Assembly: GCF_009796805.1 (NCBI RefSeq)
Contig: NZ_CP047029.1
Coordinates: forward strand, 682,001 to 746,000
DNA: 64,000 nt
Reading direction: 5' to 3'
Source: Algibacter sp. L1A34
GTDB taxonomy: Bacteria; Bacteroidota; Bacteroidia; Flavobacteriales; Flavobacteriaceae
Shown: positions 3,564-9,092 of the stretch, piece after piece
Position numbering within the stretch: the stretch's first letter is position 1
Layout: each line of letters opens with the position of its first letter
Program-made: the position numbers and the translations under genes
Notes under the pieces: model-generated
The model's database searches: none
What the model was told of the DNA's origin: nothing
The model's input: the letters and a program-made list of their open reading frames with translations, nothing else

Positions 3564-4265
3564 ATGAAAAAAACTTTAACAGTATTTACTCTAATTACTA
3601 TTTGCACGCTATTTCAATCGTGTTATGTTATGAAAAAATCTGATGATTTTTACAAAATTGAAACATCAAACCTTAACACCCTTTACCTTATTGATGTTTC
3701 TGGTAGCATGGAAGGCATAGACGAAGGCTCCGTAAAAGACCAAGTTATGAGAGAAGTTGGAGACACAGCAGGCAATCAGGTAAGTAAAATTATTGGTGGA
3801 AAAGTAGGGAGCCTTCTTGGCAAACAAGTCTCTAAAGAAGCGACTAAACTAGGTGCTGTAAAACGTAAATTAATACCTGCAATAAAAGGCCTGCCTGACG
3901 GTAAAAAATTCATTGTATTTACTTTTAGTAATGAGGTTACAAAACAGTCTACAGAATTTAGGATCGCCGACAATATGTCGAGAACCTCTTCAAATATTTT
4001 TGTAAAAAACCTAAAAGCCAAAGGAGGCACAGATACTTTAAAAGGCCTTCTAGAAGCTTTATCTATGAATGATGTACAAGAAATAGTATTAATGAGTGAT
4101 GGTCTACCAAATAGTGGCCCTGAAGCTGTACTTGAAGAAATACGCAAAGTAAACACAAACAATGTAATAATTCACACTATTGCCTTTGGAGAAGATGCCG
4201 ATTTAGATTTTATGAGAACGTTAGCTCAAGAAAACAACGGAACATTTATTACTTCAAAAATATAA
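3564..4265 (+). CDS. von Willebrand factor A domain lipoprotein
   Basis: Lipid-anchored protein. The signal peptide ends in the lipobox LFQSC with lipidated C20. A VWA domain fills the rest. The metal-ion-dependent adhesion site is complete: D44, S46 and S48 in DVSGSM, T156 in GGTDTL, and D179 in LMSDGLPNSG. Between the MIDAS loop and the next strand (residues 61-98) sits a Gly/Ser/Lys-rich stretch with GNQ, IIGGKVGSLLGKQ and TKLGAV. It resembles a glycine zipper and is not part of a normal VWA fold. VWA domains mediate metal-dependent protein binding; the partner is unknown. The gene stands alone, bounded by a bidirectional terminator. Confidence 0.85.
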   Translation: MKKTLTVFTLITICTLFQSCYVMKKSDDFYKIETSNLNTLYLIDVSGSMEGIDEGSVKDQVMREVGDTAGNQVSKIIGGKVGSLLGKQVSKEATKLGAVKRKLIPAIKGLPDGKKFIVFTFSNEVTKQSTEFRIADNMSRTSSNIFVKNLKAKGGTDTLKGLLEALSMNDVQEIVLMSDGLPNSGPEAVLEEIRKVNTNNVIIHTIAFGEDADLDFMRTLAQENNGTFITSKI

Positions 4266-4318: not shown

Positions 4319-4355
4319 AAAAAGCCCAGTAATTTACATTTACTGGGCTTTTTTT
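4319..4355 (+). terminator. Bidirectional terminator between VWA gene and PLP-enzyme gene
   Basis: A perfect 9-bp stem GCCCAGTAA/TTACTGGGC with an A-run on the left and a T-run on the right, so it can stop transcription from both of the convergent flanking genes. Confidence 0.85.
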
Positions 4356-4382: not shown

Positions 4383-6455
4383 CTAATTCAATAATTCAGG
4401 ATTATTAAGAATCAATTCTATCTTTTTAATAATTACTGTAATTTGATTCATTTGCAATTCTATATTTCTAAAGTAAAGACTAATATCCCTATTTACCCAA
4501 CTTTCTGAAATTACTCTTGCTCCTAAACTAATTCTTAATATAGCACTTTCAATATCATTACTATACTTTACATTAACTGCTTGTCCTATATGACATTTTT
4601 GACCAGCCAGCCTAATAATTTCTAAAGGTGAACCTTGAAATTGATCAGATAAATCAGAATTCAATAATGTATAAACCTTTTTTACTTGGTCTATGGATAA
4701 TGCTTTATTGTTTCTAAGAATAAAGAAAGGATAAATAGTACGGATATTTCTTATTCCAAACTCTTTACTATTATAACTATTAGTTTTTGTTTCATCACTA
4801 TAAGTTGGCTCTAAAAATGAAGCTTCCTTTATTGATTCATCAACAAAATCACAAAACATTTCAATACCCATATTTCTATAAAGAATTGGTGTTTTAAAAT
4901 ACCTATCCATTTCAACAATGGCAGCATTCCAACGCATGTAAGAACCGTAATTATATCCACTAGATAAATCATTTGAACAGCACCATGAAGTTGGCCAATC
5001 GGAATGATGGTAATATTCAGTTAACCCCTTTGGTAACGTATCCTTTAAAGAATCTATTACTTTACTAACGTTTTTAGGCAGAATTAATGCACCAGAATAT
5101 GGAGGGCCAGTAAAGTATTTACTTCCTGTTATAGTTACAATATATCCTTTGCTTAAATAATTTTTTATATCTGTAGGGTCTAACCTAAGTTGGGCCGCAT
5201 CTACAATAACTTGCATTGATAAATTATCAAATGTATTTAATCTTTGAATAAGTTCGTCACTAGGAGATTGATAGCCCAATTTTGATTGATCCATGGTATG
5301 CAATACCACATGCCTTCCCAATTCATTGGTTTTAGAAATTGCATTAAAAACTTCTTCATCTAATTGACTAGACGATTTTAACACTCCTTTTTCATCTCTA
5401 AAAGGAACTTTAATTAAATCAATATCTCTAAAGCCTTCAATTCTATCACCTTTTTTAACAGGATGATTTAAAGCTGTTGTGTTTTCAAAATGACATCCTT
5501 TTAATGCGGCAGGTACACCGCTACCCGTTTCATCAGAAGCGACTAAAACATGTGTAATATCTTTATTCGAAATAATTTGAGTTATGGCCGCTATTTGAAG
5601 TGCCGAATCGGTACCTGATGGGGAAAAAATTATTTGACATTCGTCATTTAATTTAAATATTTTTTTAAGGTTGTTTTTTAGTAACTCAGAAAACTCAATA
5701 GTGGCATTTCTAAAACCATTTTTCAAGCTATTTCTTATTAATATACTTCTAACTTTATCGGTTTTATCAAATGCAAAATTAGAAACACTTGAAGCCGTAG
5801 ATGAAGCAAAAGTAAATGCATCAGGCCTAGGAAACGGACGACAACCATATTTATTTAATAAATTAATTTCGTCTATATTCAATCTTAGATCACCACCGTC
5901 CATTAATAAATATTCCGTTGGTTTTGCAAGATTTTCAATAATAGGTATCCAAGAATCCTTAAAAACTTTGTTGGTATTATTTAAACCATGAAAAGCTTGC
6001 AGTTCGTCATACTTCAATAACGATTCAGTATTTAATTCTTCATCACTTTTAATTAAATTAATTAAAAATGAATCAAGAGATTCTAATTTTTCCTTATCAT
6101 CTTTTGGCAATAATTTATAAAATATCCTAGTTACTTTAAGTGCTGCTATATCGCATAAAACAGTATCATGCTTTTCGCTACCCAAAGCTTTATACCAAAG
6201 CTGCCATTCAATACCATATCTTAAATAAACTAAAGCTAAAACAGGTTTTTTTAAAAATGATGTTCCAATTATAATAGATTTGTTAGGTACAATTTTAAAT
6301 GCATTAGGCTCACTTGTAGAGGTAATAATGTTTATGTTATTTATCTTTGGTACCGTATTAAATCTTTTTAAAACGTGAACCAGATAATTCACATTTTCTT
6401 TTTCAAATAAACTAGTTCTTTTATACTGATCTTCAATAAGTACATTATTTTTCAT
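4383..6455 (-). CDS. Fold-type I PLP-dependent enzyme with unrecognised N-terminal region
   Basis: The 690-residue product has the signature of the aspartate-aminotransferase fold (class V/decarboxylase-like) from about residue 200. The phosphate-binding turn is SPSGTDSAL (278-286), the cofactor-ring aspartate is D419 in VIVDAAQ, and the probable Schiff-base lysine is K446 in TGSKYFTG, followed by PPYSG. Residues 1-195 do not match a family I recognise; they are soluble-looking, with alternating hydrophobic and charged stretches. No signal peptide or membrane helix is visible. The protein is 200-300 residues longer than ordinary PLP transferases. The gene stands alone, convergent with the VWA gene and divergent from rpoD. 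The substrate is unknown: it could be an aminotransferase, lyase or desulfurase-like enzyme. Confidence 0.75.
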   Translation of the reverse strand: MKNNVLIEDQYKRTSLFEKENVNYLVHVLKRFNTVPKINNINIITSTSEPNAFKIVPNKSIIIGTSFLKKPVLALVYLRYGIEWQLWYKALGSEKHDTVLCDIAALKVTRIFYKLLPKDDKEKLESLDSFLINLIKSDEELNTESLLKYDELQAFHGLNNTNKVFKDSWIPIIENLAKPTEYLLMDGGDLRLNIDEINLLNKYGCRPFPRPDAFTFASSTASSVSNFAFDKTDKVRSILIRNSLKNGFRNATIEFSELLKNNLKKIFKLNDECQIIFSPSGTDSALQIAAITQIISNKDITHVLVASDETGSGVPAALKGCHFENTTALNHPVKKGDRIEGFRDIDLIKVPFRDEKGVLKSSSQLDEEVFNAISKTNELGRHVVLHTMDQSKLGYQSPSDELIQRLNTFDNLSMQVIVDAAQLRLDPTDIKNYLSKGYIVTITGSKYFTGPPYSGALILPKNVSKVIDSLKDTLPKGLTEYYHHSDWPTSWCCSNDLSSGYNYGSYMRWNAAIVEMDRYFKTPILYRNMGIEMFCDFVDESIKEASFLEPTYSDETKTNSYNSKEFGIRNIRTIYPFFILRNNKALSIDQVKKVYTLLNSDLSDQFQGSPLEIIRLAGQKCHIGQAVNVKYSNDIESAILRISLGARVISESWVNRDISLYFRNIELQMNQITVIIKKIELILNNPELLN

Positions 6456-8166: not shown

Positions 8167-8574
8167 ATGAAAACCATTTGCTATATAAGTCATTCTGTAG
8201 AACATAAATCCCAAGAAAAACTAAAAACATTATATAATAAAGCTAAAATAAACAATTCAAAGCAAGGTATAACAGGTATTCTTATATACAAAAATCAAAC
8301 CTTTTTACAAGTTCTTGAAGGCGAAAAAAACACTGTTAATGAGGTTTTTGAAAGAATTAAAATCGACCCAAGGCACCAGCACGTTCTTAAAGTAGTAGAC
8401 ACTTCGATTGAAGAAATTATTTTTCAAGATTATCATTTTGGCTTTACAATAGTAGATAACAAGCAAGCAATAAAAAACCTTCATAACTATTTAGAATGGC
8501 TTCGTGGAGCAGAAAACAAGCTCGCAAATCAAATTATTGTTATGGTTGAAAACTTTATTAACGTTTCTCAATAA
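8167..8574 (+). CDS. BLUF-domain blue-light sensor, first of a tandem pair
   Basis: Stand-alone BLUF protein of 135 residues (flavin-binding blue-light photoreceptor). The flavin triad is present at the spacing of AppA Y21/N45/Q63: Y6 (TICYIS), N30 (INNSKQGITG) and Q48 (FLQVLEGE). IDPRH at 66-70 is also typical. On strand 5 the positions of AppA W104 and M106 hold Y89 and F91 (FQDYHFGF). A C-terminal helical cap spans about 100-135. No output domain is fused, so it must act through a partner protein. A TACTTTAG element at 8127-8134, seen also before other genes here, could be its -7 box. A diverged paralogue follows. Confidence 0.9.
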   Translation: MKTICYISHSVEHKSQEKLKTLYNKAKINNSKQGITGILIYKNQTFLQVLEGEKNTVNEVFERIKIDPRHQHVLKVVDTSIEEIIFQDYHFGFTIVDNKQAIKNLHNYLEWLRGAENKLANQIIVMVENFINVSQ

Positions 8575-8684: not shown

Positions 8685-9092
8685 ATGCTAAAAACCATTT
8701 GCTATAAAAGTAAGATAAAATCAACTCTAAATATTTTAGAACTCGAAGCCTTATTCAATGAAACCCAAAACAAAAATGACACCGAAAACATTACGGGAGT
8801 TTTAGTAAAAAAAGAAAATACTTTTTTTCAAATAACTGAAGGCCAATCTACTGCCGTAGATAAAGTTTATCTAAAAATCAAAAAAGATTCGAGACATACA
8901 AATATTATCGAAATATTAAACAATCCCATTTCTCAATTAAGCTTTAATGCCTTCGGTACCAATTATATGGTTATTGAAGATATTAATGCACTTTACGGTT
9001 TACAAAAATACATTACAAACTTAGAGCAAAACAATTTTGAAAACAGTAGTCTCTTTTTAAAAATTATTGAAGACCTATTAACTACCAACTAA
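8685..9092 (+). CDS. BLUF-domain blue-light sensor, second of a tandem pair (diverged)
   Basis: The product has 135 residues and begins with the same TICY motif as its neighbour, which supports the ATG at 8685. The flavin contacts are retained as Y7, N31 (NDTENITG) and Q49 (FFQITEGQ), and the DSRH motif is at 68-71. The strand-5 positions of AppA W104 and M106 hold F90 and T92, and the region is otherwise unlike the canonical FxxWxMGF. It is clearly more diverged than the first copy, so photocycle and signalling may differ, or one copy may no longer be light-active. It has no fused output domain. It lies 110 bases after the first copy and probably has its own promoter. Confidence 0.85.
   Translation: MLKTICYKSKIKSTLNILELEALFNETQNKNDTENITGVLVKKENTFFQITEGQSTAVDKVYLKIKKDSRHTNIIEILNNPISQLSFNAFGTNYMVIEDINALYGLQKYITNLEQNNFENSSLFLKIIEDLLTTN

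Follow-up and report, generated by a model that had tools for sequence, protein, structure and literature searches.

A fold-type I, class V-like PLP superfamily with an additional conserved N-terminal domain in Flavobacteriaceae

The window analyzed here, a 64,000-nucleotide stretch of the Algibacter sp. L1A34 genome, encodes on its minus strand (positions 4383-6455, ATG start) a 690-aa PLP-dependent enzyme of fold-type I, in which an N-terminal domain precedes a class V-like core, as judged from the ORF itself, its relatives, a predicted model and fold matches. The ORF is not a product of chance, because the best 80 of the 96 loci that encode a relative in genome contigs, which were kept for analysis, are 72-88% identical to it along almost its entire length. 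The gene stands alone in the window, adjoining an rpoD-like gene (identified by eye) and others; downstream of the rpoD-like gene, two 135-aa ORFs (8167-8574 and 8685-9092) have, again by eye, the look of BLUF-type light sensors. A preliminary description of this DNA had credited the gene with its own promoter candidate and with a bidirectional terminator, and both sites can be located. A 14-pair hairpin with a T-rich tail, resembling a bidirectional intrinsic terminator, lies at 4319-4353, in the gap that separates the gene from its convergent neighbor at 3564-4265, and a match with a single mismatch to what we take to be the Bacteroidetes promoter consensus lies at 6532-6501 on the minus strand. 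Neither count, however, constitutes evidence by itself, since the hairpin scan yielded a single site where shuffled sequences gave 1.0 on average, and the window holds 26 promoter-like matches where 24 are expected.

The same description had recognized a complete fold-type I PLP site, and this assignment holds. The SPSGTD (residues 278-283, positions 5607-5624), DxxQxR (D419, codon at 5199-5201) and TGSKYFTG (K446 in its GSK motif, codon at 5118-5120) motifs, all on the minus strand, are found where they had been reported; on the strength of their conservation and by analogy with fold-type I motifs, we take them to provide the PLP-phosphate loop, the partner of the pyridine nitrogen and the Schiff-base lysine, respectively. 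An alignment of 33 members, 16 of which are close relatives of the window protein (itself counted), contains 32 invariant columns, and 28 columns are invariant when 16 further members are added. Besides K446, D419 and Q422, three residues on from D419, the columns invariant in 49/49 include R191, S280, G281, D283, S391, K392, R424, G444, S445, R508, W509, G624, Q625, V627 and R641. The GGDxR motif (187-191) with which the core opens drifts slightly, G187 and R191 being invariant while G188 is found in 45 and D189 in 47 of the 49 members.

A full-length AlphaFold model (pLDDT 78.5; model me7f1c83946b3) predicts a fold-type I domain of the class V type over residues ~207-688, for which Foldseek reports 642 PDB matches at E≤0.001, with carbon sulfoxide lyase in the top rows. 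The best VIA-align match to the predicted model is NifS (Z 20.8, 345 residues, 4.0 Å), followed by C-DES (Z 20.0), PhnW (19.7) and AGXT (about 19), where rows within one Z unit count as tied. Together with SerC, the NifS/SufS, C-DES, PhnW and AGXT enzymes share the PLP-domain fold (50 listed rows at Z 18.7-20.8) and carry, in the same order as the window protein, the D-x-x-Q and S-K motifs. Identity in the listed rows is nevertheless only 8-15%, and the superfamily of the window protein displays conserved motifs of its own (GGDxR, RW and GQxV). Taken at face value, the prominence of NifS and C-DES among the VIA-align rows, and of carbon sulfoxide lyase among those of Foldseek, would favor an enzyme that acts on cysteine-like substrates as a C-S lyase or desulfurase, and two relatives (L010 and L064) lie near ORFs that by eye resemble sulfide-quinone reductase and CoA-disulfide reductase. 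We consider this identity improbable: fold rank inside class V says little on chemistry, and no cysteine appears among the invariant columns of the 33 or the 49 members, which argues that the catalytic cysteine of the NifS/SufS desulfurases is not conserved across the superfamily. Cysteines near-invariant in close relatives, such as C205, C535 and C621, are clade-specific.

At E≤10 the window protein has no match in Pfam, in NCBIfam or among PDB sequences. Aminotran_5, with a best E of 0.11 in two of 16 members, is not matched by the window protein at this threshold, and neither is the PF00282 profile of group II PLP decarboxylases. The members that consist of the PLP domain only gave no convincing Pfam or NCBIfam match; searching PDB sequences with the A1 profile gave no hits, and with the wider A3 profile two hits to an ion channel (E 0.9) that were taken as chance. 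No full-length match to a characterized family, named beforehand as the observation that would overturn the preliminary description, turned up in Pfam, NCBIfam or PDB sequences. The new enzyme class it had envisaged is not demonstrated, the fold of the PLP domain being a known one. The protein belongs to a fold-type I, class V-like PLP superfamily that has no name in the Pfam, NCBIfam and PDB sequences searched, and it represents a new family of a known enzyme kind, with an extra conserved domain in the clade of the window protein. The interest of this superfamily lies in its presence in at least three bacterial groups and in the strong conservation of its own motifs in spite of its absence from those resources.

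Relatives occur in Flavobacteriaceae, in other Bacteroidota, in Chlorobi-like genomes (a label read from kinship and neighboring genes) and on rhizobial plasmids. The genera named in the titles of the 80 kept loci are, we presume, all Flavobacteriaceae except for one (L040), labeled Lentimicrobium, whose locus is syntenic with Flavobacterium and which is probably a misbinned MAG contig. In another (L078, 1109-3304), the gene seems to be split, probably by an assembly gap, because the break consists of undetermined letters that appear as X in the translation. Among whole genomes, in samples that overlap, a relative is present in 9/60 near relatives (own genome included), 11/296 genomes of the phylum, 19/397 of the Flavobacteriaceae and 2/61 of the Chlorobi-like family of genome G098; the A3 profile detects it in 16/199 genomes of the family of G122 and in 4/159 of the class of G049. 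Plasmids contributed 33 records, all of them from rhizobia (26-29% identity among the 20 listed), and no relative was found in viral contigs. In the tree, a PLP-only clade of 18 rows, here termed RGSCTC after a motif resembling this sequence, is supported at 100/100; the deep forks are not settled, and the tree carries a warning of long branches and of odd composition in the rhizobial rows.

The preliminary description had also set apart the first 195 residues as matching nothing recognizable. The region indeed has no Pfam, NCBIfam or PDB match and is conserved in relatives, but its boundary must be moved. PLP-only members in other groups, of about 465-545 aa, start shortly before GGDxR, and because they keep this segment it belongs to the core; the extra domain hence comprises residues ~1-172 (5940-6455, minus strand) and the core residues ~173-690 (4386-5939, minus strand), of which ~211-687 are covered by the alignments to class V-like folds. 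The N-terminal domain is less conserved than the core, with a mean identity of 76.9% vs 81.5% in 84 close relatives and of 33% vs 47% in four distant ones. Even so, 21 positions are invariant in 89 rows (window included), among them R79, Y80, E83, W84, C101 and D102.

A fold search of this region had been expected to reveal whether a novel domain is conserved across homologs; conserved it is, and its structural matches are weak. Folded alone with 20 sequences (pLDDT 70.1; model mae42a9f67376), the domain gave no Foldseek hit at E≤0.001 (best E 2.6). When VIA-align was applied to the 176 weak Foldseek candidates, it listed 11 rows at Z 5.0-6.7, a range for which the program itself warns that values below 8 may mean little. 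Judged by title, or by fold-class names that are in part our own attribution, ten of these 11 rows are metallopeptidases or HExxH proteins; the other is YbeY. They include BlaR1 (Z 6.7, 117 aligned, 4.3 Å), the HExxH domain of the alpha-ketoglutarate hydroxylase ChlB (8s5f; Z 6.6, 156 aligned, 4.6 Å), selecase, ZMPSTE24, jannalysin and a DPC-repair protease, the first two being weak resemblances to a zincin of the M48/M56 kind and to an HExxH oxygenase. The possibility of a zincin had been written down before the fold search. In contrast to zincin HExxH proteins, none of the 89 rows of the N-terminal domain nor either of two Chlorobi-like proteins contains HExxH, and the invariant R79 and E83 occupy, as placed by eye, the positions expected of the zincin histidines. 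Profile comparison does not favor homology to M48: HHalign returned a probability of 0.2% against 28 M48 sequences, and with the trimmed domain 57/60 and 26/60 column shuffles scored at least as high as observed against two M48 subsets. Given the low Z scores, the absence of HExxH, the residues at its place and an HHalign score no better than shuffles, with only the structural rows in its favor, the zincin interpretation of the modeled domain is retained only as a lead.

HExxH proteins of zincin-like fold that act as alpha-ketoglutarate hydroxylases are described in PMC12636437, so that there is precedent for the reuse of the zincin fold. The NCBIfam family for HExxH peptide modification (TIGR04267) was found in 0/198 genomes, and a literature search retrieved no paper combining HExxH with pyridoxal, RiPP and decarboxylase. 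If the domain were a metal-free zincin, a protease fold would here have been put to an unusual new use next to a PLP site. Between Flavobacteriaceae and Chlorobi, HHalign aligns 31 columns of the N-terminal domain (probability 1.8%, E 0.028) with a score that was attained in one of 200 shuffles, which is only suggestive of homology between the two.

The gene had been depicted as a self-contained unit with no pathway neighbors. The latter is true in the window, where no member of the gene set described below is a co-directional upstream neighbor, but not of many relatives, and the former finds no support. In 27/80 loci, at least one member of a recurrent set lies upstream of, and co-directional with, the PLP gene. 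The set, whose members were named in representative loci, comprises DUF134 (24 loci), GTP cyclohydrolase II (RibA; 14), a NifX/ORP-like PF02579 protein (13, main cluster), a YbgC-type thioesterase (13), MBL (5) and TrmO (5); TrmO stops 5 bp short of the PLP gene in four loci and overlaps it in one. In 26 loci, mostly from Flavobacterium, a convergent gene that by eye resembles cysteine synthase lies downstream. The Algibacter genome itself (G000) carries DUF134, NifX-like, RibA and thioesterase genes at 4350.0-4352.1 kb, far from the PLP gene at 686.4-688.5 kb, and there they adjoin a gene for adenosylcobalamin (B12)-dependent ribonucleotide reductase (RNR); a cytochrome-like ORF (by eye) is also seen beside them (4350.0-4354.8 kb). 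In a genome of the same genus (G003), RNR, DUF134, NifX-like, thioesterase-like (by eye) and PLP genes follow one another in a row.

This association can also be appreciated at the genome level. DUF134 exceeds the cut-off in 11/397 genomes, and eight of these belong to the 19 that carry the PLP gene (Fisher p 8e-10, shared ancestry ignored); the B12-dependent RNR does so in 19/24 genomes with the PLP gene vs 15/48 without it (p 1e-4, hand-chosen genomes, shared ancestry ignored). DUF134 is found without a PLP-gene match in three genomes (G438, G461 and G550). At one locus from a genome without a PLP-gene match (L173, 8712-14108), DUF134, NifX-like, RibA, DoxX-like, thioesterase, MBL and CoA-disulfide-reductase-like ORFs, several of them assigned by eye, lie in a row; the operon therefore exists without the PLP enzyme. 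No paper joining DUF134 with Nitro_FeMo-Co was found in the literature, and no title among the DUF134 papers listed concerns this operon. It could be argued that in Flavobacteriaceae the gene merely travels with a set of genes for an anaerobic lifestyle and has no connection with the DUF134 operon, its task being the tailoring of natural products or surface polysaccharides. No set gene lies within the fetched upstream flank of 53/80 loci, and relatives are found within clusters of polysaccharide type (by eye) or next to NRPS/PKS or AMP-binding genes. Linkage recurs, however, in different chromosomal settings. Of the eight genomes with both DUF134 and the PLP gene, five have them in linked loci; the three that hold them unlinked (G000, G452 and G464) also weigh against this account, though the DUF134 clusters of G452 and G464 have another make-up, lacking RibA and thioesterase. 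We therefore hold the carried-along account to be rather unlikely.

The search for a pathway shared among the neighbors of homologs, which had also been suggested at the outset, was rewarded outside the clade of the window, by amino-acid decarboxylases; neither these nor the DUF134 set are present at the window locus. In the RGSCTC clade, a co-directional LysA/ODC-like fold-III decarboxylase (PF02784/PF00278) adjoins the PLP gene in 16/18 contexts, the exceptions being L246 and L247; its identity was confirmed by Pfam in L101 and L105 and in the rest by BLAST to that of L101. Decarboxylases of this type, which are partners only, are absent near the window gene. Chlorobi-like genomes pair the PLP enzyme with a group II decarboxylase (PF00282; resembling the DABA decarboxylase RhbB) in 2/2 cases, encoded separately in one and fused to the PLP enzyme in a 1214-aa protein in the other, and a literature search returned nothing on such a Chlorobium-type fusion. 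A group II decarboxylase also directly follows the PLP gene in Rhizobium rhododendri and R. tumorigenes. These near-identical loci are the only two with a decarboxylase among ten rhizobial contexts read; of the remainder, two follow NRPS/PKS or AMP-binding genes, one follows DmpA and D-alanine aminotransferase genes and five have no evident partner. Group II decarboxylases are fold-type I enzymes too, and their fold is unrelated to that of the fold-III LysA/ODC-like ones, but as a partner they form a separate protein or domain, and the window protein itself lacks a PF00282 match. Around the PLP genes of G042 and G876, and upstream of that of G026, where the contig stops at the gene, no decarboxylase was seen.

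The LysA-like partner lends some appeal to a different chemistry, in which a class V-type amino-acid epimerase or racemase would make a D-amino acid for the decarboxylase. LysA-like fold-III decarboxylases work on a D centre, isopenicillin N epimerase is a class V enzyme, and a Neorhizobium copy of the gene follows those annotated as D-aminopeptidase and D-alanine aminotransferase. Group II decarboxylases, the partners in Chlorobi-like genomes and in two rhizobia, act on L-amino acids, however, and we deem epimerization unlikely.

The reading we prefer, and to which we would give an even chance, is that of an amino-group-transforming enzyme of amine or diamine biosynthesis, with an accessory N-terminal domain and a low-oxygen use in Flavobacteriaceae. 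From motifs and fold, PLP would be bound on K446, with D419 and Q422 placed behind its ring and the phosphate surrounded by SPSGTD, and the invariant arginines R191, R424, R508 and R641 probably hold the carboxylate of an amino acid or another anion. The enzyme would most likely transform the amino group of an amino acid, its substrate or product being handled by an amino-acid decarboxylase in the making of an amine or diamine, and an aminotransferase-type reaction would be our first, if tentative, choice. The role in amine biosynthesis is suggested by the decarboxylase partnership in other clades only. In the clade of the window the partner is absent, a decarboxylase-like ORF appearing in the fetched flanks of 1/80 loci (L078, about 4.6 kb downstream), and there is no genome-wide association with PF00282 (22/24 genomes with the PLP gene vs 41/48 without), both of which speak against it, as do the two RGSCTC contexts and the eight rhizobial ones that lack a decarboxylase. 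Use under low oxygen is postulated because of the link to the DUF134/NifX-ORP-like gene set and the co-occurrence with B12-dependent RNR; the 53/80 loci with no set gene in the fetched upstream flank and the different clusters of G452 and G464 count against the preferred reading. The conserved N-terminal domain would have an accessory role, possibly as a degenerate zincin that now helps in binding substrate or in assembly.

A bolder version, which we rate as having only a slim chance, is that of a new PLP superfamily whose working unit is a two-step module coupling the PLP enzyme to an amino-acid decarboxylase, a module that would have arisen independently with decarboxylases of two unrelated folds. 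Flavobacteriaceae and relatives would then have gained a dead zincin, its metal-binding HExxH turned into RxxxE, that binds substrate or peptide and passes it to the PLP site. The repeated pairing with amino-acid decarboxylases, one fusion included, makes the chemistry directly testable. Several loci of the RGSCTC clade lie within surface-polysaccharide-type clusters (by eye). At L105 (4516-6324), a gene with an asparagine-synthase domain (PF00733) lies beside the PLP-decarboxylase pair, and an ORF resembling it by eye is found at L245 (5197-6657).
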